A stretch of 64,000 nucleotides of DNA, taken from positions 62,001 through 126,000 of the forward strand of contig NZ_FOSG01000014.1 in NCBI RefSeq assembly GCF_900114215.1. Reading direction: 5' to 3'. The translations under genes and the position numbers were made by a program. This stretch comes from Streptomyces mangrovi. Lineage in GTDB: Bacteria; Actinomycetota; Actinomycetes; Streptomycetales; Streptomycetaceae. Below the pieces are notes generated by a model. The model was not told the origin of the DNA. It worked only from the letters and a program-made list of their open reading frames with translations, and did not search any database. Of the stretch, positions 1 to 11,589 are shown piece after piece. How positions within the stretch are numbered: position 1 is the first letter of the stretch; the number at the start of each line of letters is the position of its first letter.

Positions 1-1046
1 ACGCCGCCGCCATCGCCCGCCTGCTGGTCAGGACCGGTATCGAGCTGGTCGAGGTCGGAATGGTCTCCGGCCCGGACTCGAAGGACGCCGACCTCGTCCT
101 GGCCACCCATGAGGCCGTCGGTCCCGAACGCAGCATGACGCTCGTGGTCGTACGGGACCGCCGGCAGGTCGCCACGGCACTCGACGAGGCCGAGCGACTG
201 GGCGTGCGCCACATCATGTACTCCATCCCCACCTCCGAGCAGCACGCCGGACTCAAGCTGGGCTCGTCCAGCCCCAAGTTCCTCCAGGCACTCGCCCGTT
301 CGGCGATCACGCAGGCCAAGGAGCGCGGCTTCCACGTCACCTTCAGCGGCGAGGACGGCGCCCGCACCCCCAGGGAGCGGCTCGTCCCGTACGTCACCGC
401 GGGCTTCGAGGCCGGGGCCGACCGGTTCCGCCTCGCGGAGACCGTGGCGTACCTCTCGCCCTGGCAGATGGAGCGGGTGGTCTCCGATCTCACCGCGATC
501 GACGGGTCCGAGATCGAGATCCACTCGCACAACATGCTGGGCATGGCCGTCGCCAACTCGCTCGCCGCCGTCCGCGCCGGCGCGCAGTGGATCTCGGTCA
601 CCGTCGGCGGCATCGGTGAGCGCGGCGGCAACGCCCCGCTGGCGGAGCTGCTCACCGCCCTGCACGTCATCCACGGCGACAACCGCTTCGACCTGGGACA
701 TCTGACGGAGCTGTCGCGGATCGCCCTGAGGGGGGCCGGTCTCGGCGACGCCTTCCAGTCCGGGCCGACCACGCCGCACGCCTTCGCCTACGAGTTGCCG
801 GGCCAGCTCACCCACCCGGAGGCGTACGAGACGCTGCCCGCCGAACTCGTCGGCAACCAGCGCGAGCTGCGGGTCCGCAGCCGTCTGACGCCCAGCCTGG
901 TCACCTGGGCGCTGAGCGGGTCCGGAATCCTCGCCGACCCGGACGCCCTCACGTCATGGCTGATCAAGCGGCAGGAACGCGACGGCCGTCCGCTGCTCGA
1001 CCGGGACGCCATCCGCAAGGCCGCCATCGACTTCCAGGCCGTCTGA
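1..1046 (+). CDS. Homocitrate/2-isopropylmalate synthase-like (HMGL/DRE-TIM barrel) enzyme, 5' truncated
   Basis: The open frame begins at base 3 and runs off the left edge, so the real start and the N-terminal catalytic Arg segment are not visible. The visible 347 residues are DRE-TIM metallolyase: GIELVEVG near the start, the metal-binding HSHN motif, and GIGERGGNAPLAEL, as in isopropylmalate and homocitrate synthases. Such enzymes condense acetyl-CoA with a 2-oxo acid. The C-terminus is short and lacks the LeuA-type allosteric domain, which fits a homocitrate-synthase-like role better than leucine synthesis. It lies 115 bp upstream of lysW, so it probably makes the carbon skeleton fed to the carrier-protein pathway. 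Substrate is unknown; citramalate or other condensations are alternatives. Confidence 0.85.
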   Translation, partial: AAAIARLLVRTGIELVEVGMVSGPDSKDADLVLATHEAVGPERSMTLVVVRDRRQVATALDEAERLGVRHIMYSIPTSEQHAGLKLGSSSPKFLQALARSAITQAKERGFHVTFSGEDGARTPRERLVPYVTAGFEAGADRFRLAETVAYLSPWQMERVVSDLTAIDGSEIEIHSHNMLGMAVANSLAAVRAGAQWISVTVGGIGERGGNAPLAELLTALHVIHGDNRFDLGHLTELSRIALRGAGLGDAFQSGPTTPHAFAYELPGQLTHPEAYETLPAELVGNQRELRVRSRLTPSLVTWALSGSGILADPDALTSWLIKRQERDGRPLLDRDAIRKAAIDFQAV

Positions 1047-1161: not shown

Positions 1162-1347
1162 ATGTCCACCGCAGCCCTTGCCGGTTCCTGCCCCGAGTGC
1201 GAGACCGATCTGACCGTGCCGCCGATGGTCCACGGCGAGACCCTGTCCTGCCCCGAGTGCATGCTCACCCTCCGTGTCGAGGACGTGCGCGACGGCGTGC
1301 TCACCCTCCAGATGGTCGAGGTGCAGCTGCGCGACTGGGGCCAGTGA
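1162..1347 (+). CDS. lysW: LysW-type amino-group carrier protein with C-terminal Gln
   Basis: This 61-residue acidic protein has two CPEC knuckles (residues 10-13 and 30-33) forming the LysW zinc ribbon, and ends in RDWGQ. Known LysW/AmCP proteins end in EDWGE, where the side-chain carboxyl of the last Glu forms an isopeptide bond with the amino group of aminoadipate or glutamate, protecting it during reduction. Here the last codon is CAG (Gln), followed directly by TGA. Either the amide must first be hydrolysed, another carboxylate is used, or this is a sequence change of one base. The start ATG follows GGGAG. LysX, LysY and LysZ genes follow immediately, so the family call is secure. Confidence 0.93.
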   Translation: MSTAALAGSCPECETDLTVPPMVHGETLSCPECMLTLRVEDVRDGVLTLQMVEVQLRDWGQ

Positions 1348-1373: not shown

Positions 1374-2225
1374 ATGGGTACCACCATCGCCGTCGTCGCG
1401 GACCGGCTCGGCTGGGAGGAGCGCCGGCTGATCCAGGTCGCGCCCGAGGCCGGCCTGACCGCCGAGTGGGTCAACGACGAATCACTGTGCCTCGGCGACG
1501 CGGACCCCGCGTCGCTGTCCGGGTACGACGCCGTCCTCGTCCGGAGCCGCAGCTACACCCGTGGCGGCCTGGTCGCCACGCTGGCCGAGGCGTCCGGCAT
1601 CCGTACCGTCAACTCCGCCGCGGCCATCCGGGCCTGTGAGAACAAGCTCGAACTGCGCACCGTCCTGCGCCGGGCCGGCGTCCCGGCCGCGCCCTTCCGG
1701 CTCGTGCTGTCCCGCCGGGACTTCCAGCGGGCACTGGAGGACATGCCGCCGCCCGTGGTGCTCAAGCCCGTCTTCGGCGGCATGGGCAAGCGGGTCACCC
1801 TGATCCGGGACGCCGACACGGCCCAGTCCGTCTACGACTACGTCGAGGATCTCGGGCACGGCTTCGAGCAGGCCGCGCTGGTGGAGCCGTACCTGGACAA
1901 AGGCACCTCCGTCCGGTGCTTCGTCGTCGGCCGTGAGCTGGTCGCCACCGCCCGGTTCGCGAGCGCCGGCGGGGACTGGCGCAGCAACGCGGCACTCGGC
2001 AACCAGAGCCGGGCCCTGGACCACGATCCCGCCATCACCGGGATCGTCGACCGTGTGGTGGACGTGCTCGGCGCCGGCGTCTACGGCATCGACCTGTTCG
2101 AGACCCCCGACGGGCACGTCGTCAACGAGGTCAACCACGCCCCCGCGTTCAAGGCGATAGCCGAGGCGACCGGGGCGGACATCCCGCGGGCCCTCGCCCG
2201 CCACCTGCAGGAGGCACTCACGTGA
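1374..2225 (+). CDS. lysX: LysX-family ATP-grasp ligase (LysW conjugating enzyme)
   Basis: This 283-residue RimK/LysX-type ATP-grasp ligase should activate the carrier protein's C-terminal carboxylate and link it to the amino group of an amino acid. Visible signatures are NSAAAIRACENK (substrate/ATP lid region), VVLKPVFGGMGKRV (ATP-binding Lys and Gly loop), WRSNAALG, and a C-terminal NEVNHAPAFK metal/substrate motif typical of LysX (EVN-x-PEFK). The start was chosen at the ATG 9 bases after GGAGGAG; longer frames upstream have no such site and overlap lysW. The stop overlaps the lysY start by 4 bp (GTGA), so the genes are translationally coupled. Which amino acid is loaded cannot be read from the sequence. 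Confidence 0.93.
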   Translation: MGTTIAVVADRLGWEERRLIQVAPEAGLTAEWVNDESLCLGDADPASLSGYDAVLVRSRSYTRGGLVATLAEASGIRTVNSAAAIRACENKLELRTVLRRAGVPAAPFRLVLSRRDFQRALEDMPPPVVLKPVFGGMGKRVTLIRDADTAQSVYDYVEDLGHGFEQAALVEPYLDKGTSVRCFVVGRELVATARFASAGGDWRSNAALGNQSRALDHDPAITGIVDRVVDVLGAGVYGIDLFETPDGHVVNEVNHAPAFKAIAEATGADIPRALARHLQEALT

Positions 2226-3286
2226 TCCGGGTAGGAGTCGTCGGCGCCTCCGGGCTGGCCGGCGGTGAACTCATCAGGCTGATCACCCAACATCCCGACC
2301 TGGAGCTGACCTTCCTCGGCGGCTCCTCCAACATCGGCAGGCGCCCGGCCCAGCTGCACCCGGGCCTCCGCCTCGATCTGGGCCTGACCGTGCAGCCGGT
2401 CACCACGGACATCGCCGACCGGGTCGACGTCGTCCTGCTGGCGACCCCGGCGCCGGTCTCGGCGGAACTGGCCGCGCTGCTCGCGGACCGGGTCCCCGCC
2501 GTGATCGACCTCAGCGGCGCCTTCCGCATCCGCACACCGGAACTGCACGACCGCTGGTACCCCGGGGTGAAGCGGCGCGACGACCTCGTGGACCGCTTCG
2601 TGTACGGCGTGCCGGAACTGGTCGGCGACCAGATGGCGGACGCCGCGCTGATCTCGCTGCCGGGCTGCTACGCCACCTCGATCACCCTGGCTCTCGCCCC
2701 CCTGACCCTCGGGCTGGGCCTGACCCTGAAGACCGTGGTGGTGGACGGCAAGAGCGGCTCCAGCGGCGGCGGCCTGAAGTTGCGCACCGCGGACCTGCAC
2801 CCGCTGCGCAACGGCGCCATCGCACCGTACGCACCCGTGGGTCACCGGCACGCCGCGGAGGTCGGCGACTTCCTGGACCGCGGCAAGCCGGGCGCCGTCG
2901 GACACCTGTCGATGTCCGCCTACGGTGTCTCGCACGTCCGCGGCCTGCTCACCAGCTCCTACGCCTTCACCGACGAGGACATCGACCAGCGCGAGCTCCA
3001 ACGCGCGTACCTGCGCTTCTACAAGGGGCACCGGTTCGTGCGGGTCCGGCGGCACACGGAGACCCTGATCCCGGTGCCCGACCCGCAGGCCGTGCTCGGT
3101 TCCAACTTCTGCGACGTGACGGTCCTGCGGGACGAGGACGACAGGGCCGGCGGCCGGATCGTCGTCCTGGCCGCCCTGGACAACCTCGTCAAGGGCGCCG
3201 CGGGCCAGGCCGTACAGGCCGTGAACAAGCGCTTCGGACTGCCCGAGGAGACGGGTCTGGCGATGCAGCCGGTGATGCCGGCATGA
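2222..3286 (+). CDS. lysY: LysY/ArgC-type acyl-phosphate reductase
   Basis: This 354-residue protein is of the N-acetyl-gamma-glutamyl-phosphate reductase family. An N-terminal Rossmann motif (VGVVGASGLAGGEL) binds NADPH, and SLPGCYATS carries the catalytic Cys that forms the thiohemiacetal. In LysW pathways LysY reduces the carrier-bound acyl phosphate made by LysZ to a semialdehyde. The gene starts with GTG overlapping the lysX stop, and its own stop overlaps lysZ (ATGA). An arginine-pathway ArgC is the only realistic alternative, but the LysW/X/Z context argues strongly for LysY. Confidence 0.93.
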   Translation: MIRVGVVGASGLAGGELIRLITQHPDLELTFLGGSSNIGRRPAQLHPGLRLDLGLTVQPVTTDIADRVDVVLLATPAPVSAELAALLADRVPAVIDLSGAFRIRTPELHDRWYPGVKRRDDLVDRFVYGVPELVGDQMADAALISLPGCYATSITLALAPLTLGLGLTLKTVVVDGKSGSSGGGLKLRTADLHPLRNGAIAPYAPVGHRHAAEVGDFLDRGKPGAVGHLSMSAYGVSHVRGLLTSSYAFTDEDIDQRELQRAYLRFYKGHRFVRVRRHTETLIPVPDPQAVLGSNFCDVTVLRDEDDRAGGRIVVLAALDNLVKGAAGQAVQAVNKRFGLPEETGLAMQPVMPA

Positions 3287-4086
3287 GCGGAACCTCCCGT
3301 GACCGGACCCCCACCGTCGTGAAACTGGGCGGCAGCTGCCTCGACGATCTGGCCGAGTCCTGGTGGGACGACCTGGCCCGGCACGGGCGGGAACACCCGC
3401 TGGTGCTCGTGCACGGCTGGTCCAGACCCCTGAGAGAGCTGAGCCCCCGCTACCGCGACCCCTCGGCGATCCTGCGCGACCGGTACGGCAACCAGAGCAG
3501 ATGGACCACCCCCGAGGTCATCGCGGACATCAAGGCCGTCAGCGCACGGCTGGGCGAGGAGGTCATCGGCCGGCTGGAGCGGCACGGCATCACCGCGGAG
3601 CGGCTCCTGGGCAGCGACGGCCTGGTCCACGCCGGCGAGGGCGAGCGCTGGTGGTGGCGGAACAAGCAGCTGGTCGAACTGGAGAACCTGGTCGGCCCGA
3701 TCACCGCCGTGGACCCCTCACGGCTGAAGAACCTCCAGCCCGGTCACGCCTGCCTGGTGACCCCGCTGGCCCGCGACGCCGGGGGCCGGGAGGTGAACAC
3801 CGACGCCGACCGGGCGGCGGCCGCCCTGGCCGCCGCCACCGGTGCCACCGATCTCGTCCTCGTCACCGACGTCGCCCACCTGCTGATCGACGGCGAGCCG
3901 GTGTCCCGGATCGGCGCCCGGGCCGCGGCCGAGTTCCGCGACAAGGGCGCCACCGGCGGCATGCGCAAGAAGCTGCGCGCGGCCGGCGAGGCCCTCGACG
4001 GCGGAGTGGACCGGGTCGTCATCGGCAGCGCACCGGTCACCGATCTGCTCGCCGGCCGCACCGGAACCGTCATCACCCGTACGTGA
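3283..4086 (+). CDS. lysZ: LysZ-type carrier-bound amino acid kinase
   Basis: This 267-residue amino-acid-kinase-fold protein resembles N-acetylglutamate kinase. It shows the N-terminal VVKLGGSCLDDL phosphate-binding loop, the VNTDADRAAAALAAATGA nucleotide region, LVLVTDVAHLL, and a GGMRKKLRAAGEAL helix carrying the conserved Lys. In LysW systems LysZ phosphorylates the distal carboxyl of the carrier-bound amino acid, giving LysY its substrate. It is the last gene of the tightly overlapping lysX-Y-Z block. The TWW/WWWRNKQ segment (around residues 119-126) is basic and aromatic, plausible for docking the acidic carrier, but that is inference. Confidence 0.92.
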   Translation: MSGTSRDRTPTVVKLGGSCLDDLAESWWDDLARHGREHPLVLVHGWSRPLRELSPRYRDPSAILRDRYGNQSRWTTPEVIADIKAVSARLGEEVIGRLERHGITAERLLGSDGLVHAGEGERWWWRNKQLVELENLVGPITAVDPSRLKNLQPGHACLVTPLARDAGGREVNTDADRAAAALAAATGATDLVLVTDVAHLLIDGEPVSRIGARAAAEFRDKGATGGMRKKLRAAGEALDGGVDRVVIGSAPVTDLLAGRTGTVITRT

Positions 4087-4098
4087 GGAGTCCCGCGC

Positions 4099-4662
4099 AT
4101 GGCGCAATCCCGTGTACTCGTCGTCAACAACGGCACGTTGTCCCTGAAACAGCTCCGCGCACGCTTCGAGAAGCTGGGGTCGCGGACCGACGCGGTGGAC
4201 GTGGCGTCCGTACCCGCCACCCTCGGGGGCCGCTACCAGGCCATCGTGCTGAGCGGCACCAAGGTGCGGGCCTGTGACACCGCGTTCTACCGGCCGCTCG
4301 TCGACCTCGTCATGGGGTCCGGCGTCCCGGTCCTCGGCATCTGCGGCGGTATGCAGCTCATGGCCGTGGCGGCGGGCGGCCGGCTGGCGGAGGGCCCGCA
4401 GCGGGTCGGCGGCTACGACGCCCAGGTCGACAAGGAAGAGCCGCTGTTCACCTACGTCAAACCCACCGTGACCGTCTTCCACCGCCACACCCTGTACCTG
4501 CGGGAGGCCCCCGAGGGCTTCCGGTCCATCGGCCGCTCCGGGCACGCGCCCGTGGAGTTCCTGCGCTCCGACGACGGGAGGATCTTCGGCTCCCAGGCGC
4601 ATCTGGAGTTCCGCAGCGACGGCCTGGAGATCCTGCGCGGCTTCGCCCAGCTCTACCGGTGA
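4099..4662 (+). CDS. Stand-alone class I glutamine amidotransferase-like protein
   Basis: This 187-residue GATase1-fold protein starts 12 bp after lysZ. The nucleophile elbow GICGGMQLM places the Cys at 82; His168 and Glu170 (QAHLE) complete the triad, so it should be active as a glutaminase. It has no synthase domain and no recognisable partner (GuaA, HisF, CarB) in the window. Its position inside the LysW operon makes two roles plausible: supplying ammonia to another cluster enzyme, or hydrolysing a protein- or peptide-linked glutamine such as the terminal Gln of the LysW protein. Both are inferences; only the fold and triad are visible. Confidence 0.85.
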   Translation: MAQSRVLVVNNGTLSLKQLRARFEKLGSRTDAVDVASVPATLGGRYQAIVLSGTKVRACDTAFYRPLVDLVMGSGVPVLGICGGMQLMAVAAGGRLAEGPQRVGGYDAQVDKEEPLFTYVKPTVTVFHRHTLYLREAPEGFRSIGRSGHAPVEFLRSDDGRIFGSQAHLEFRSDGLEILRGFAQLYR

Positions 4663-4741: not shown

Positions 4742-5860
4742 ATGAGCGTTGTGGAAAACCCGCAGGAGCCGGCGTTCACCGTGCGCCTGAACGGCAGCGG
4801 CGGCGTTCTGAAGGGCTGGGTCGTCGTCGACACGCTCGTCGACGGCCTGGCGATGGGCGGCACCCGTATGACCGCCGGGGTCACCGAGGAGGAGGTCGCC
4901 GGCCTCGCACGGGACATGACCGAGAAGTTCACGCTCGCCGGGCTGCGCATCGGCGGCGCCAAGGCCGGCATCGTCTCCGACGGCAGCGACCGCGAGGAGA
5001 CCTTCCGCACCTTCGGCCGTACCGTCAAGCCCCTGCTGCACGGCGGCATCCACCTCGGCATCGACATGGGCGTCACCCCCGCGGACCGGGCCGTCTTCTT
5101 CGCCGAGGCCGGTTACGACCCGCGCTACCGGCTGGGCGCCCCGGACATGCCGATCGACTGGCGCACGTACTACGAGCCGCTGATCGACGCCACCGGGCAC
5201 GGCGTCGGGGTCGCCGCGCTCACCGCCCTGGAGGCGGGCGGCCGCACGACGTCGGCGCGTGTCGTGGTCCAGGGCTTCGGCGCCGTGGGCCGCTCGGTCG
5301 CCCGGTTCCTGGAGGAGCGCGGGCACGTGGTCGTGGGCGTCGCCGACGTGCACGGCACCATCAGCGCGGACCGGCTGCCGGTCGCCGACCTGGTCGCCGT
5401 CACCGACGAGTTCGGGCGGATCGACCGCTCCCGCCTGCCGCAGCACGTCACCGTGTCCGCCGAGCCGGACGCCTGGCTCGGACTCGACGCCGACGTGCTG
5501 GTCCTCGCGGCGCAGAAGCACGCGCTCAACGCCGAGAACGCCCACCGCCTGCGCGCCCGCCTGGTGGTGGAGGGCGCCAACCTCGCCTCGAGTGCCGAGG
5601 CCAAGGAGAAGGTCCGGGCCACGGGTGCCACCCTGGTCCCGGGCGTGATCGCCAACATCGGCGGGGCCGCGTCGGCCGCCCTGGCCGTCACCCGGGTCGT
5701 CCCGTTCGACCTGGCGGCCGACGCGCGCAAGGAGTGGGTCTTCGGCTGGGTCGCCGACCGGGTGCGCCACAACACCCGGGCCCTGCTGGAGATCGCCGCC
5801 TCCCGGGCGGGCGACCCGCTGCCCGAACTGCTCGCGGCCCGGCGCGGGGACCTGCGATGA
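4742..5860 (+). CDS. Glu/Leu/Phe/Val dehydrogenase-family oxidoreductase
   Basis: This 372-residue protein has the two-domain layout of NAD(P)-dependent amino acid dehydrogenases. The N-terminal domain has GGTRM and GGAKAGI (catalytic Lys), and the Rossmann domain has VQGFGAVGRSVA. The GGAKAG motif departs slightly from the usual GGAKGG. Members interconvert 2-oxo acids and L-amino acids with ammonia. In this cluster it may aminate a 2-oxo acid intermediate, or oxidise an amino acid to feed the synthase. ATG at 4742 was chosen because AAGGA lies 8 bases upstream; a TTG two codons earlier is an alternative. The stop overlaps the ligase start (ATGA). Confidence 0.9.
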   Translation: MSVVENPQEPAFTVRLNGSGGVLKGWVVVDTLVDGLAMGGTRMTAGVTEEEVAGLARDMTEKFTLAGLRIGGAKAGIVSDGSDREETFRTFGRTVKPLLHGGIHLGIDMGVTPADRAVFFAEAGYDPRYRLGAPDMPIDWRTYYEPLIDATGHGVGVAALTALEAGGRTTSARVVVQGFGAVGRSVARFLEERGHVVVGVADVHGTISADRLPVADLVAVTDEFGRIDRSRLPQHVTVSAEPDAWLGLDADVLVLAAQKHALNAENAHRLRARLVVEGANLASSAEAKEKVRATGATLVPGVIANIGGAASAALAVTRVVPFDLAADARKEWVFGWVADRVRHNTRALLEIAASRAGDPLPELLAARRGDLR

Positions 5861-7512
5861 CGCCCACGACCACGGCCGTCCTGGCCACGGCCTCGGCGGC
5901 GGACCGCATGGCCGAGTACCGGCGGCGCGGATGGTGGCGGGACGCCACGTTCCTCGACGACCTGCGCCGTCAGGCCCTGGCACGGCCGCGCAAGCTGGCC
6001 ATCGCCGGACGCCGGCTCGACGAGGCCCGCACCGACACGCTCGACTACACCGAACTGTCCCGGCTGACCGACCGGTTCGCCGGAGCACTGCTCGAACTGG
6101 GCGTCCGGCGCGGCGACATCGTCGCCGTCCAACTGCCCAACCGGTGGGAGATGGTGCCGCTGATGTTCGCCTGCATGGCGGTCGGCGCGGTCATCTGCCC
6201 CATCGCGCCCGTCTGCCGGGAGGAGGAGCTGCGCCACCGCCTCACGCTCACCGAGGCCAGGGTGTGCGTCACCCTGCCGGAGTGGGAGGGCTACCCGCTC
6301 GCCGAGGCCATCAACGCGCTGCGGCCCGAGCTGCCGCTGGAGCACCTGGTGGTCGTCGACGGGCACGCCCCGCGGGGAGCGGTCGACTTCCACGACCACT
6401 TCGTCTCCACACACTGGGAGAAGCAGCACATGGGCGACCTGGAAGGCCGCGCGCTGCGGCCCGACGAGCCGTTCGTGGTGCTGTTCACCTCGGGCACGAC
6501 CGGTTTCTCCAAGGGCGTGGTGCACAGCCAGAACACCGTGCACTCGGGCGTGCGCGGCTACGTGGACACGTTCATGCTCCGCGACGACATGGTGGCCGTG
6601 GTCACCACGCCGCTGGTGCACTACTCCGGCTTCGGCCAGGGGGTGCTCGCCGGGGTGATGCTCGGCGGGACGATCGTCTTCCAGGACGGCCACGACCACG
6701 CCGGCCTGCTGGACCTGGTCGAGAGGTACCGCGGCACCCTGCTGTACGGACCGCCGCCCACGCTCTCCGGTGTGGCGGCCGCCCAGCAGACCGACCCGCA
6801 CGACGTGTCCAGCCTGCGTCACACGGTCACCGGAGCGGCGCCGGTGCTCCAGGAGCTGGTGGACGAGCTGCGGGACACCTTCGGGGCCCGTACGTACTCG
6901 GTGTGGGGCATGTCCGAGTTCGGTCCGGTCACCATCAGCCGGCTCGACTACAACCAGGACTGGGCCGCGCACAGCCACGGGCGGCCGATCGACTCCATGG
7001 AGATCCGCATCGACCTGTGCCACGACCCCGACAAGCGGGCCCCGGTGGGCCGGCTGCGGGTGCGCGGGGCCTCACAGGCCCTCGGCTACCACAAGCAACA
7101 GGACGCCTTCGACGCCGAGACGACCGCGGACGGCTGGTTCGACACCGGCGACGTGGCGCGCGAGGACGGCCGCGGCGGCATCCGCATCCTGGGCCGGGCG
7201 AGGGACACCATCCTGCGTGACGGGATCGTCGTCCCGATGGCGGAGCTGGAGGCGATCATCTCGCGGCACCCGAAGGTGACCGAGGCGGCGCTGGTCGGTC
7301 CCACCGGCAAGGTGGACGACCCGATCCTGGCGGTCGCCGTGCCCTGCGGCGGCGCCCGGCCCACGCTCCAGGAGGTCCGGGAGCACCTGCGGGACCACGG
7401 ACAGGACCCCCGGTTCCTCCCCGAGCGGCTGGAGGTCGTCGAGGCGCTGCCCAAGACCCTGACGGGCAAGGTCCGCAAGGTGGAGCTGAGACGGCGCTAC
7501 GCCGCCCGGTGA
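5857..7512 (+). CDS. Class I adenylate-forming ligase (acyl-CoA/aryl-AMP ligase family)
   Basis: This 551-residue ANL-superfamily enzyme activates a carboxylic acid as its adenylate. Visible motifs are the P-loop TSGTTGFSKGVV (A3), WGMSEFG (A5), GWFDTGDVAR (A7), GRARDTILRDG (A8 hinge) and the C-terminal catalytic Lys in KTLTGKVRK (A10). Its length matches cyclohexanecarboxylate-CoA or dihydroxybenzoate-AMP ligases. No free carrier domain (ACP/PCP) or condensation domain is encoded in the window, so transfer is probably to CoA, an amine, or a carrier encoded to the left. It is translationally coupled to the dehydrogenase. Confidence 0.9.
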   Translation: MTPTTTAVLATASAADRMAEYRRRGWWRDATFLDDLRRQALARPRKLAIAGRRLDEARTDTLDYTELSRLTDRFAGALLELGVRRGDIVAVQLPNRWEMVPLMFACMAVGAVICPIAPVCREEELRHRLTLTEARVCVTLPEWEGYPLAEAINALRPELPLEHLVVVDGHAPRGAVDFHDHFVSTHWEKQHMGDLEGRALRPDEPFVVLFTSGTTGFSKGVVHSQNTVHSGVRGYVDTFMLRDDMVAVVTTPLVHYSGFGQGVLAGVMLGGTIVFQDGHDHAGLLDLVERYRGTLLYGPPPTLSGVAAAQQTDPHDVSSLRHTVTGAAPVLQELVDELRDTFGARTYSVWGMSEFGPVTISRLDYNQDWAAHSHGRPIDSMEIRIDLCHDPDKRAPVGRLRVRGASQALGYHKQQDAFDAETTADGWFDTGDVAREDGRGGIRILGRARDTILRDGIVVPMAELEAIISRHPKVTEAALVGPTGKVDDPILAVAVPCGGARPTLQEVREHLRDHGQDPRFLPERLEVVEALPKTLTGKVRKVELRRRYAAR

Positions 7513-7664: not shown

Positions 7665-8933
7665 ATGCTCGAAGCCCCATCGGTGACCGTGTCGGCGACA
7701 CTGGCCGCCGACGAGGCGCTGGCCCGCCGGCGCGATGCCGGGGAACGGGTCCTGTCCCTGGCGAGTGGGGAGATCGGCCTGCCGGTCCTCCCCGCGCTGC
7801 GGGAACGGCTCGCCGCGGCGGCGGGCCGCAACGCCTACGGCCCGGTCGCCGGCAGTGCGGCGCTGCGCACCGCCGCCGCCGGGTACTGGGCGCGGCGGGG
7901 TCTGGAGACCGACCCCGGGCTGGTGGTGTGCGGGCCCGGCAGCAAGCCGCTGCTGTTCGCGCTGCTGCTGGCGATCGGCGGCGACGTGGTGGTGCCCGTG
8001 CCGAGCTGGGTCAGCTACGCGGCGCAGGCGCGACTGGCCGGGGCCCGGCCGGTTCCGGTGCCCGTCCTGCCGGGCCAGGGCGGTGTGCCCGATCCGGCGG
8101 CGCTGCGCGAGGCGGTGGCCCGTGCCCGCGCCGCCGGGCGCGACACGCGCTGTGTGGTGGTCACCCTGCCCGACAACCCGACCGGCACCATCGCGGCACC
8201 CGCCACCGTGCGGCGCCTCGCGGAGGCGGCCCGTGAGCTGGACCTGGTCGTCATCTCCGACGAGATCTACCACGACCTGGTCTTCGACCCGGCGGACCGG
8301 CCGCCCTCCCCGGCCGTCTTCGCGCCCGAGCGTACGGTGGTCACCACCGGCCTGGCCAAGAACCTGGCGCTCGGCGGCTGGCGGGCAGGGGTCGCCCGGC
8401 TCCCGGAAGGCCCGCTCGGCCGCGGGACGCACGACCGGCTGGTCGCCGTCGCCAGCCAGATCTGGTCGAGTGCCGCCGCCCCCGTGCAGGCCGCCGCGGC
8501 CTACGCCTTCGAGGAGCCGCCCGAGGTGGTCGAGCACCTCGCCGCCGGCCGGCGGCTGCACGAGACGGTGGCGCGCGCCGTGGCCGAACGATTCACCGCC
8601 GTCGGCGCCGAACTGCCGCCCGTACGCGCGACCTGCTACCTGTACCCCGACTTCGAGCCGCTGCGCGAACACCTCGGCCGGGCACACGGGGTGCACGACA
8701 GCGGTGGACTCACCACCCTGCTCGCCGAGCGGTACGGCGTGGGACTGCTGCCGGGCGCCGCCTTCGGCGAGCCCGGGCGGTACCTGCGCGTCCGTGCCGC
8801 CACCGGCCGGCTCTACGGCGAGACGGAGGCCGAGCGCACCGGCGCCCTGTCCGCCGCGGACCCACTCCGGCTCCCGTGGATCCGGGATTCCCTGAACCGC
8901 TTCGACGAGGTCCTGGGCGCCCTGGCGCGCTGA
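7665..8933 (+). CDS. Class I/II PLP-dependent aminotransferase
   Basis: This 422-residue fold-type I aminotransferase resembles aspartate aminotransferase. It shows the DNPTG motif (VVVTLPDNPTG), ISDEIYHDLVF with the PLP-pyridine Asp/Tyr, the Schiff-base Lys in TTGLAKNLALGGWRAG, and a C-terminal YLRVRAA Arg region. The start is the ATG behind GGAGGAAACACC; the frame extends upstream through C-rich spacer without another good site. LysW-lysine pathways use a class III enzyme (LysJ) for the terminal amination, so a class I/II enzyme here implies a different acceptor or a step on another part of the molecule. A 152-bp pyrimidine-rich spacer separates it from the ligase. Confidence 0.92.
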   Translation: MLEAPSVTVSATLAADEALARRRDAGERVLSLASGEIGLPVLPALRERLAAAAGRNAYGPVAGSAALRTAAAGYWARRGLETDPGLVVCGPGSKPLLFALLLAIGGDVVVPVPSWVSYAAQARLAGARPVPVPVLPGQGGVPDPAALREAVARARAAGRDTRCVVVTLPDNPTGTIAAPATVRRLAEAARELDLVVISDEIYHDLVFDPADRPPSPAVFAPERTVVTTGLAKNLALGGWRAGVARLPEGPLGRGTHDRLVAVASQIWSSAAAPVQAAAAYAFEEPPEVVEHLAAGRRLHETVARAVAERFTAVGAELPPVRATCYLYPDFEPLREHLGRAHGVHDSGGLTTLLAERYGVGLLPGAAFGEPGRYLRVRAATGRLYGETEAERTGALSAADPLRLPWIRDSLNRFDEVLGALAR

Positions 8934-9002: not shown

Positions 9003-9902
9003 ATGTCCATCATCTTCGAATGCGAGTACCAGGGCCGGCGGTACGCGGGTCTGGGCATACCGGTTCCCGGCGAACCCCACACCCTCCACCGGGTGGCCGA
9101 CGGCCGGCTGGCCGCCGCCCTCGTCGCGGGCGGCGGGCCCGAGGCCCTGAGCGCCGCCGTGGCGCGGGGAACCGAGACGGTCGAGGTGACCCTCGGCGAC
9201 CCGGAACTGCGCTTCCTGCCTCCGCTGCTGCCCACCGCCCCCGACAGCGGCCTGATCAACGGCTTCATGGGCACGCACCGCTCCAAGTTCGACCGCGCCC
9301 CGGAGCCCGACGAGGAGTTCACCCCGCCCAACTACTACATCAAGGGCTTCGGCTCGTGGCTGCGCATGCCGGACGAGCCGCTGACCACCCCCGCCGATCC
9401 GGTCTGGCTGCTGGAGGAGCCGGAGGTGGCCCTGGTGTACGTCAACGACGACCGGGGCGTCCCGCACTACGCGGGCTACACCTTCGGCAACGACCTCAAC
9501 GACATCGGTCTGCACCTGAAGAACCCGTGGGCCTGGACCCCGTACGCGAAGCTGTGCGAGACCTCCCTGACGCCCTGGCTGTTCCTGGGGCCGCCGCCGC
9601 GGACCGCGACCGGCCGGGTCGTCATCGAACGGGACGGCCGGCCCGCGTGGGAGGGCCCCTTCTCGTGCGGCACCGACTCCCTGTTCCACCGCGTGGAGGA
9701 CATGACCGGACATCTGTTCTCGTATCCGGCGCTGCGCCGGCCGGGCCTGGTCAACTACCTGCTGCTCGGCGCGGACAAGGCCACCTACCACGACGGGTTC
9801 CGGATCGAGGACGGCGACCGGATGGTCATCGACGTGACCAGCCACGGCGTCGTGCTGGCGAACCCGGTCCAGTACGGTCAGGCGGAGACGGCCAGGTCGT
9901 AG
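9003..9902 (+). CDS. Fumarylacetoacetate hydrolase (FAH)-fold protein, AraD1/GguC-like
   Basis: This 299-residue protein follows AGGAGG. The pattern NYYIKGFGSWLRMPDEPL, then WLLEEPEVALVYV (acidic metal ligands), AGYTFGNDLNDIGLHLKN and YAKLCETSLTPWLFLG matches the FAH superfamily, particularly the AraD1/GguC branch, which acts on 2-keto-3-deoxy acids. Family members hydrate, dehydrate, decarboxylate or hydrolyse C-C bonds in 2-oxo acids with a divalent metal. In this cluster it could process an oxo acid or a late intermediate. The call rests on motif recognition, so subfamily and reaction are uncertain. Its 3' end overlaps the convergent MerR gene by 25 bp. Confidence 0.7.
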   Translation: MSIIFECEYQGRRYAGLGIPVPGEPHTLHRVADGRLAAALVAGGGPEALSAAVARGTETVEVTLGDPELRFLPPLLPTAPDSGLINGFMGTHRSKFDRAPEPDEEFTPPNYYIKGFGSWLRMPDEPLTTPADPVWLLEEPEVALVYVNDDRGVPHYAGYTFGNDLNDIGLHLKNPWAWTPYAKLCETSLTPWLFLGPPPRTATGRVVIERDGRPAWEGPFSCGTDSLFHRVEDMTGHLFSYPALRRPGLVNYLLLGADKATYHDGFRIEDGDRMVIDVTSHGVVLANPVQYGQAETARS

Positions 9903-10306
9903 TCCGCTGCCGCCGGCCGCTCGGGCCCGCCGGCTCCGGCGGGCCGCCGGGCCCCGCGCACGGCCTCAAGGTAGTCGGAGATGGCGTCCCTGCTGCGGAT
10001 CAGGCACTCGATCCGCTGGGTCATCCGCTCGCGCTCGCGCTCCAGCGTGGTGATCGTCTCCAGGGTCGCCCCGGCGACATGGATGGACCGGGGCTGCTTC
10101 AGGCACGGCAGGATCTGCTTGATGACACGGGTCGGCAGCCCGGAGTCGAGCAGCCCCCTGATCTGCAGTACCCGGTCCACACTGCGCTCGCAGTACTCCC
10201 GGTATCCGTTCGGCGAACGGTCCGGTACCAGCAGGCCCTGTTCCTCGTAGTAGCGCAGCATCCGGCGCGGCGTCCCCGTCCGCTCGGCCAGTTCCCCGAT
10301 CCGCAT
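9878..10306 (-). CDS. MerR-family transcriptional regulator
   Basis: This 142-residue regulator has the N-terminal winged helix MRIGELAERTGTPRRMLRYYEEQGLL typical of MerR, followed by a dimerisation helix (ITTLERERERMTQRIECLI) and a short Ala/Pro-rich tail with no sensor domain. The start chosen is the ATG at 10306, where the MerR consensus begins; an upstream in-frame extension has no family similarity. It diverges from the MFS gene, and the 65-bp shared gap holds an inverted repeat. It is probably the switch for efflux, possibly sensing the cluster's product. Its 3' end overlaps the FAH-fold gene, which is convergent. Confidence 0.93.
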   Translation of the reverse strand: MRIGELAERTGTPRRMLRYYEEQGLLVPDRSPNGYREYCERSVDRVLQIRGLLDSGLPTRVIKQILPCLKQPRSIHVAGATLETITTLERERERMTQRIECLIRSRDAISDYLEAVRGARRPAGAGGPERPAAADYDLAVSA

Positions 10307-10371: not shown

Positions 10372-11589
10372 ATGTCAACGTCCGAAACAGACCTGCTGAC
10401 CGGCGAACCACCGGCCCCGAAGCAGCAGAAGCTGCCTCTGTCACCGCTGCTGGCCCTGTGCACGGCGGCGTTCATGGGAATCCTCACCGAGGCCCTGCCC
10501 GCCGGCGTGCTGCCGGAGATGGCCCGCGATCTCTCCGTGAGCGAGTCCGCGGCGGGGCAGACGCTGACGATCTACGCGATCGCCACGGGCCTCTCGGCGA
10601 TCCCGATGTCCGTGGCGACGGCCACCTGGCGCCGCAAGAGGCTGCTGCTGCTCGCCGTCACGACCTTCGCCGTCGCCAACGTCGTCACCGCCCTCTCCTC
10701 CAGCTACGCCCTGACGATGGTCTTCCGCCTCGCCGCCGGTGTGGCCGCGGCCGTCGTGTGGGCCGAACTCGTCGGTTACGCCCGCCGTCTGGCCCCGCCG
10801 CATCTGCAGGGCCGGGCGATCGCCATCACCATGGCCGGCATCCCGCTCGCGCTCTCCCTGGGCATCCCCCTGGGCACCTTCCTGGGCGAGCTGTTCGGCT
10901 GGCGGCTGACCTTCGGTCTGGTGACCGTGGTGTCCGTACTCCTGCTCGGATGGGTCTCCGTGTCGGTTCCCGACTACCCCGGTCAGCAGGCCGGGAAGCG
11001 GGCACCGATCCTGCAGGCGCTCAAACTGCCCGGTGTGGCGGCGGTGCTGTTCGTGGTCGCCGCCTACGTCCTGGCGCACAACATCCTCTACACCTACATC
11101 GCCACGTTCCTCGACGAGTACGACATGACCGCCTCCCGCGACGTCGTCCTGCTGGTCTTCGGGATCGCCTCCATGGTGAGCATCTTCATCACCGGCGCCC
11201 TGGTCGACCGCCGGCTGCGGGCCCTGACCATCGGCAGCACCGTTCTGTTCCTGGTGGCCGCCGGCATGCTGGCGGTGCTGGCCGACAACACGGCCGCGGT
11301 CTACCTGGCGATGGTGCTGTGGGGCCTCGGCTGGGGCGGTGTGGCCACACTTCTGCAGACCGCCGTCACCGACGCGGGCGGCGACCGGGGGCAGGCCCTG
11401 CTGGTCACCACGTGGAACTCCTTCATGGCCGGCGGCGGTGCGGTCGGCGGCATCCTGCTCGACGGCCTCGGCCCCACCTCCTTCCCGTGGAGCGTCCTGC
11501 TGCTGCTGGCCCCCGTGCTGCTCGTCGTGGTCGGCGCCCGCGCGCACGGCTTCCCCGCCAAGCGGCCGAGCATGATGACGACGGACTGA
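10372..11589 (+). CDS. MFS transporter, DHA1 (AraJ/YdhP-like) drug exporter
   Basis: This 405-residue protein has about twelve hydrophobic segments. The loop between helices 2 and 3 is basic (TWRRKRLL), and helix 4 carries a RLAAGVAAAVVWAEL-type motif B. Proteins of this kind expel drugs, arabinose or amino-acid-like metabolites by proton antiport. The ATG follows GGAGG. Placement beside a MerR gene at the end of the LysW cluster suggests product export or self-protection. A perfect 13-bp hairpin ends the unit 26 bp downstream. Confidence 0.92.
   Translation: MSTSETDLLTGEPPAPKQQKLPLSPLLALCTAAFMGILTEALPAGVLPEMARDLSVSESAAGQTLTIYAIATGLSAIPMSVATATWRRKRLLLLAVTTFAVANVVTALSSSYALTMVFRLAAGVAAAVVWAELVGYARRLAPPHLQGRAIAITMAGIPLALSLGIPLGTFLGELFGWRLTFGLVTVVSVLLLGWVSVSVPDYPGQQAGKRAPILQALKLPGVAAVLFVVAAYVLAHNILYTYIATFLDEYDMTASRDVVLLVFGIASMVSIFITGALVDRRLRALTIGSTVLFLVAAGMLAVLADNTAAVYLAMVLWGLGWGGVATLLQTAVTDAGGDRGQALLVTTWNSFMAGGGAVGGILLDGLGPTSFPWSVLLLLAPVLLVVVGARAHGFPAKRPSMMTTD

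Follow-up and report, generated by a model that had tools for sequence, protein, structure and literature searches.

A conserved C-terminal glutamine on a LysW-type carrier of actinobacterial gene clusters and a neighboring cysteine hydrolase as its candidate deamidase

The LysW-type amino-group carrier protein encoded in the window (the whole stretch of Streptomyces mangrovi DNA that was analyzed, 64,000 nucleotides) ended in glutamine, and the same residue closed nearly all carriers of its branch; the observation is real, conserved and apparently undescribed in the open-licence literature searched. The Gln-tail system can be grouped with the known LysW carrier systems as a variant, for which deamidation and release are well-motivated proposals. 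We lean, if only somewhat, toward a reading in which a functional carrier of an iso-maleimycin-type pathway would be made as an inert pro-carrier with C-terminal Gln, and in which a hydrolase of the cluster would deamidate Gln61 and later release the product, replacing LysK. This reading draws on the conservation of Gln, on a hydrolase that constantly accompanies the carrier and has an intact triad and a matching predicted fold, and on the lack of M20 genes in the vicinity; from these we infer the enzyme activities and their order.

The carrier and its encoded terminal glutamine

The carrier gene was located between an isopropylmalate-synthase-like gene (5') and lysX (3'), within the following arrangement (window coordinates):

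1 to 1046, plus strand: isopropylmalate/homocitrate-synthase-like protein (HMGL-like), with its probable start upstream of the window, 109 bases ahead of it (L101:17892)
1162 to 1347, plus strand: LysW-type amino-group carrier protein, 61 aa, two CPEC motifs, terminal RDWGQ
1342 to 1344, plus strand: terminal Gln codon CAG (Gln61), then stop codon TGA at 1345-1347
1374 to 2225, plus strand: LysX/ArgX-type ATP-grasp ligase, GGMGK in place of the carrier-recognition motif GSWGR
2222 to 3286, plus strand: LysY/ArgC-type reductase
3283 to 4086, plus strand: LysZ/ArgB-type kinase
4099 to 4662, plus strand: stand-alone class I glutamine-amidotransferase-like cysteine hydrolase (C82, H168, E170), proposed Gln61 deamidase and releasing enzyme
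4742 to 5860, plus strand: Glu/Leu/Phe/Val dehydrogenase family protein
5857 to 7512, plus strand: acyl-CoA/AMP ligase family protein
7665 to 8933, plus strand: PLP-dependent aminotransferase family protein (GntC-like)
9003 to 9902, plus strand: GguC-like/fumarylacetoacetate-hydrolase-like protein, in agreement with the annotation of relatives
9878 to 10306, minus strand: MerR-type regulator
10372 to 11589, plus strand: MFS transporter

Translation of the 186-base carrier reading frame gave the tail MVEVQLRDWGQ followed by a stop, and the terminal Gln reported in a preliminary description of this DNA was borne out, with LRDWGQ as the last residues and CAG as the last sense codon. The intergenic DNA ahead of lysW (1070-1160), which follows the isopropylmalate-synthase-like gene, was C-rich and G-poor on the plus strand. 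The protein contained the four putative zinc-binding cysteines of LysW/ArgW carriers in two CxxC motifs (CPEC...CPEC). It scored 23 bits against PF21344 (cut-off 27) and 39.9 bits against NF041070 (cut-off 75, a value reached in only one of five control genomes with NF041070 matches), so that Pfam and NCBIfam both placed it among LysW-type proteins with significant scores, though under both curated cut-offs. Like the LysW/ArgW carriers of lysine, arginine and DADH biosynthesis, it is small, ends in a D-W-G tail and adjoins LysX, LysY and LysZ homologues. It differs from those carriers, which bear their substrate on the gamma-carboxylate of a terminal Glu, in ending as encoded in RDWGQ rather than EDWGE; the cluster further has GGMGK in LysX where theirs has GSWGR, and an amidotransferase-like hydrolase where theirs has an M20/LysK-type peptidase.

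A scan of named genomes, using search patterns that left out the last residues of the carrier, returned 69 relative loci, of which 68 encoded RDWGQ and one (L098, Actinopolyspora alba) RDWGE. Among the distinct carrier cores of all collected loci, 80 ended in RDWGQ versus 64 in Glu (59 EDWGE, 3 EDFGE and 2 RDWGE). The Gln tail is therefore confined to the RDWG branch and near-universal there, and a sequencing error at the Gln codon is refuted by this conservation. By record titles, the tail extended across 15 actinobacterial genera: Streptomyces, Streptacidiphilus, Actinacidiphila, Kutzneria, Kitasatospora, Spongiactinospora, Amycolatopsis, Nocardia, Kribbella, Lentzea, Streptomonospora, Sphaerisporangium, Actinoplanes, Nocardiopsis and Glycomyces. 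The last sense codon was CAG in all 102 Gln-carrier matches (duplicates counted), followed by TGA in 98, TAA in 2 and TAG in 2; since the stop varied while CAG stayed, a special recoding at one stop codon could be ruled out.

Among 392 genomes sampled from the host genus, carrier relatives with at least 72% identity occurred 25 times in 24 genomes, including that of the window, and a profile search of the same sample gave LysW-type matches in 74 genomes; for most of the remaining matches the surrounding DNA was also collected. Phylum-wide searches added few carriers, with matches in 14 of 396 genomes in one search, several without a carrier-like end, and in 3 of 396 in the other. In G391, the second genome of the host species, no carrier relative was found, and the cluster seems to differ between strains. 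Some loci possessed two Gln-ending carrier genes separated by approximately 10 kb, one preceding lysX and the other an aminotransferase gene, as at 6583-6768 and 16800-16985 of L221 and in the pairs L043/L045, L054/L081, L039/L060 and L051/L052. The position of the second gene (L221, L043) hints that the aminotransferase may also act on carrier-bound material.

Open-licence literature searched on Gln, deamidation, LysK and amidotransferase described no Gln-ending LysW carrier. The available part of PMC13061610 (diazo/s56-p1) contained nothing on the carrier tail, that of PMC12022981 contained no discussion of a Gln tail, and the term "glutamine amidotransferase" was absent from the main text of the latter.

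The Gln carriers belong to a single type of cluster, akin to that for iso-maleimycin. Evidence on function came from BGC23a of Streptomyces sp. QL37, which comprises genes for 2-isopropylmalate synthase, lysW, rimK and an AMP ligase, and in which deletion of lysW and rimK abolished iso-maleimycin (PMC12022981, in part). Similar clusters are named in the same source for strain SM11, S. filamentosus and S. shenzhenensis; the loci L036, L061 and L066, from organisms bearing those three names, all ended in RDWGQ, and in each of them nine core proteins were 60-87% identical to their window counterparts. Compared through these loci, the window cluster shares with BGC23a the isopropylmalate-synthase-like gene, lysW, rimK/lysX and the AMP ligase, and differs by an acyl-CoA-dehydrogenase pair beside it. 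As Gln is conserved and the related cluster needs lysW-rimK for its product, the window carrier is very probably functional. The preliminary description had expected the carrier to be inactive unless deamidated or linked by a different bond; plain inactivity is very unlikely for a tail found in 80 distinct sequences, with a related cluster that needs lysW-rimK.

The acyl-CoA-dehydrogenase-like genes lie divergently upstream of the cluster (L101 15055-17598, minus strand), and similar genes accompanied 10-12 of the 68 loci, all longer than 9 kb, on which the gene-conservation counts were made. Another EDWGE-type carrier cluster was seen in L109, L110, L112 and L113, with a CoA ligase approximately 40% identical to the window's ligase. 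A family 3 encapsulin cluster, a setting known for LysW-like carriers (PMC8346489, in part), was rejected, as no capsid-type family appeared among the matches of the scanned genes.

History of the tail and its recognition by LysX

Glu-ending relatives within the RDWG branch were found on Rhodococcus plasmids (L102, L103 and L104), with carriers 56-59% identical to that of the window and ending in RDWGE, and a cluster of the same kind surrounded the RDWGE carriers of both Rhodococcus and Actinopolyspora. In one R. erythropolis strain, copies were present on two plasmids, and the carrier gene lacked annotation. A tree was built from LysX, LysY, LysZ and the hydrolase of 74 loci with 12 outgroup loci (other outgroup loci were dropped). 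Two Rhodococcus loci formed the first branch, the grouping of the remaining ingroup loci having support of 0.985; Actinopolyspora formed the next, beside all 71 Gln loci, with support of only 0.48. The simplest history on this tree would be a single Glu-to-Gln change after the Rhodococcus split; given the weak placement of Actinopolyspora, its Glu could be a reversal. Glu was likely the ancestral state of the tail, at a time when the lineage possessed the hydrolase. Because the Rhodococcus relatives possess the hydrolase, end in Glu and branch first, the hydrolase is probably older than the change to Gln.

Parsimony on the 74-locus tree, with one carrier per locus (the second carrier of two-carrier loci was dropped), gave one change at the last position, 21 at position -12 and 6 at position -9, while L-R-D-W-G showed no change anywhere. 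Of the 74 loci, 55 had Q or E at position -12, where other residues occurred as well, and 73 had E or Q at position -9. Because the Gln codon is one base change from Glu and yet the site stays constant, its constancy points to selection for Gln. That the Gln codon reflects a sequencing error or a dead carrier is hardly credible in view of the 80 distinct Gln homologues, the constancy of the tail while nearby sites swap Glu and Gln, and the need for lysW-rimK in the related cluster (PMC12022981, in part).

Canonical carriers end in EDWGE, a motif recognized by the GSWGR motif of LysX/ArgX, and LysX uses the gamma-carboxylate of the terminal Glu (PMC10433800, in part). The preliminary description was sound on this chemistry, by which the encoded Gln form could not be loaded in the known way. 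GSWGR was present in 49 of 50 LysX sequences of the EDWGE/EDFGE group, whereas GGMGK or GGMGR (residues 135-139 of the window protein) was present in all 82 Gln-type sequences and in all three RDWGE sequences. After removal of duplicates and of proteins outside 230-340 aa, ten LysX positions split the Gln-type from the EDWGE-type; the Gln-type residue was found in all three RDWGE sequences at six of these positions and in at least one at nine. Position 71 separated the groups, with Ala in 80 of 82 Gln-type sequences and Leu or Thr in the three RDWGE sequences, which leaves a little room for a LysX change in step with Gln. Overall, the comparison indicates that LysX changed with the transition from E-D-W-G to R-D-W-G and not with that from Glu to Gln. 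Since RDWGE and RDWGQ systems have the same LysX motif, the simplest reading is that LysX of the RDWG line acts on a Glu tail, and that Gln would first have to be converted.

RimK adds to the end of protein S6, and a similar reaction in which LysX links the substrate to the alpha-carboxylate of the Gln61 main chain would make deamidation unnecessary. The window ligase passed the cut-off of the RimK family model and not that of the LysX model, and its carrier-recognition motif is altered, both in keeping with such a linkage. However, the same altered motif accompanies Glu-ending carriers, a hydrolase of the gamma-glutamyl type could not free a product from an alpha-linkage, and the conserved cluster genes counted included no further dedicated peptidase; we therefore regard an alpha-linkage as doubtful.

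The cysteine hydrolase and product release

The gene adjoining lysZ encodes a hydrolase of 187 aa. A tblastn search detected it in 75 of the 76 carrier loci longer than 6 kb; in the single locus without it (L078), the contig ended 1.7 kb past the carrier. In five loci, all with two carriers, the hydrolase lay 7.5-8.4 kb from the best-matching carrier. Its conservation was on par with that of the core enzymes (median identity 82%), and the triad C82, H168 and E170 was invariant in 79 of 79 sequences. The predicted structure (mean pLDDT 91.3) matched two gamma-glutamyl amide hydrolases: the glutaminase subunit (subunit A) of GMP synthetase, with Z 26.4 and rmsd 1.8 over 179 aligned residues, and gamma-glutamyl peptidase 1 of Arabidopsis, with Z 21.7 and rmsd 2.5 over 184. 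With its Cys-His-Glu triad and modeled fold, the protein resembles the class I glutamine amidotransferases and gamma-glutamyl hydrolases, such as GMP synthetase subunit A, PuuD and gamma-glutamyl peptidase 1, and relatives in PLSDB were annotated as gamma-glutamyl-gamma-aminobutyrate hydrolase family proteins. It differs in having R-H-T-L-Y, invariant in its group, where one GMP synthetase has S-H-Q-D-A, and in lacking a synthetase domain; an ammonia-using partner could be a separate protein. We take the maleimycin structure to contain an imide nitrogen. Because the nearest relatives by sequence were the glutaminase domains of GMP synthetase, the hydrolase could instead be an ammonia supplier, for example for the maleimide nitrogen.

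The usual releasing enzymes of carrier systems are of the LysK type, and LysK belongs to the M20 peptidase family. With 6 kb required on both sides of the carrier (loci with less on either side were dropped), M20 genes were found in none of 68 Gln loci, not all independent, as some repeat others and two-carrier loci count twice, versus 47 of 54 EDWGE/EDFGE loci. The M20 profile had been made from seven proteins of four EDWGE loci in the same set, which favors detection in that group; the distance checks used an independent Pfam model. By that model, six of the other seven EDWGE/EDFGE loci (seven genomes) had an M20 gene 16-26 kb off on the same contig, and in 20 Gln-carrier genomes no M20 gene lay within 30 kb of the carrier among the matches listed, which were read by eye. 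A hydrolase of the window type occurred in none of the 54 EDWGE/EDFGE loci, where two amidotransferase matches resembled PabA/TrpG and PuuD-like proteins. A gene caller that had been trained on genes of the window detected the hydrolase in 67 of 68 Gln loci and one of four RDWGE loci; it missed those of L084 and three Rhodococcus loci, all of which were recovered by tblastn.

The pattern of co-occurrence, on which the release role is based, suggests that the hydrolase takes over from LysK as the releasing enzyme, cleaving the gamma-glutamyl isopeptide bond. An enzyme of that kind can also be expected to hydrolyze the terminal Gln amide. Such an activity would account for the appearance of Gln in the hydrolase line and for the fact that it was unseen with an M20 peptidase. 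Deamidation cannot be the only role of the hydrolase, because the Glu-ending Rhodococcus and Actinopolyspora loci keep it.

The strict keeping of Gln is unaccounted for by the pro-carrier reading, and would be explained if Gln61 were the active form, with the tail activated and not blocked. The hydrolase would then be a transamidase whose Cys82 takes the gamma-glutamyl group with loss of ammonia and passes it to the amine of the substrate, a transglutaminase-like loading through a thioester without ATP that would later be reversed to unload. The gamma-glutamyl thioester chemistry of class I amidotransferase-type enzymes permits such a transfer to an amine. Nevertheless, we consider this route improbable: lysX adjoins the carrier in 63 of 68 loci, with shared conserved residues, and would be redundant, and the Glu-ending relatives with the same gene set could not load their carrier in this way.

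Deamidation of the pro-carrier and the Pup/Dop comparison

In some actinobacteria, Pup is translated with a terminal Gln, and Dop both deamidates Pup and removes it from its targets (PMC8223512, PMC8599861, both in part); Dop recognizes the Pup tail and is related to glutamine synthetase (same sources, in part). The carrier resembles Pup in being translated with C-terminal Gln, and in the Pup/Dop system a single enzyme performs both tail deamidation and isopeptide cleavage. The two systems differ in that LysW is a zinc ribbon carrying a metabolite and in that the candidate deamidase has the class I amidotransferase fold, whereas Dop is kin to glutamine synthetase. Dop-model matches in the host genome were located on contig C26 beside Pup, and the LysW cluster was located on C15 with no Dop or PafA homologue encoded with the carrier. 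The host's own Pup ends in GGE (L223, contig C26, with Dop-family genes nearby), which rules it out as a precedent for Gln in the same cell; because it ends in Glu, this host lacks a Dop that already handles a Gln-ending substrate. The preliminary description was apt in citing Pup and Dop as a precedent, and this part stood along with its tail chemistry, while the inactivity it had expected did not; deamidation is retained here as a proposal, and the hydrolase in the operon had escaped it.

A further explanation, which we regard as unlikely but worth weighing, is that the hydrolase only releases product or supplies ammonia, and that Gln61 is deamidated by Dop, by another host amidase or spontaneously. 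The host does have Dop, the hydrolase resembles GMP synthetase glutaminase domains, Glu-ending relatives keep it, and the product of the related cluster is named a maleimycin (PMC12022981, in part), whose imide nitrogen needs a source. However, Dop recognizes the Pup tail (PMC8223512, PMC8599861, in part) and with a Pup ending in GGE serves no Gln tail in this host, and for a conserved modification a chance enzyme or slow spontaneous loss is less likely than a dedicated neighbor.

Under the pro-carrier reading, LysW with its encoded Gln61 would be translated as an inert form. Cys82 of the hydrolase would attack the gamma-carboxamide of Gln61, ammonia would leave and water would give Glu61. LysX would then attach an amino acid, perhaps glutamate, as its D-W-R-S-N region resembles that of ArgX, and LysZ and LysY, judging by their families, would yield a carrier-bound semialdehyde. 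The same hydrolase, by the same chemistry, would finally cleave the gamma-glutamyl isopeptide bond and release the finished intermediate, replacing the M20 metallopeptidase LysK; both tasks in one enzyme would parallel Dop, which deamidates Pup-Gln and removes Pup. A maleimycin-like skeleton could follow: the dehydrogenase-type enzyme would carry out a deamination and the isopropylmalate-synthase-like enzyme a condensation with acetyl-CoA, after which an aldol reaction would close the ring and the imide would form.

The combination of RDWGQ, GGMGK and the hydrolase would provide a signature for genome mining. If the pro-carrier reading is true, it predicts a +1 Da shift on the carrier that depends on one neighboring gene, and it would tell which enzyme a reconstitution of iso-maleimycin-type pathways should include. 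A whole actinobacterial branch of carrier pathways would use a pro-carrier that needs to be switched on, and a cysteine hydrolase, maybe performing both tasks, would have replaced the classical releasing metallopeptidase. This would represent a second, unrelated case of the logic of Pup and Dop, now in small-molecule biosynthesis.
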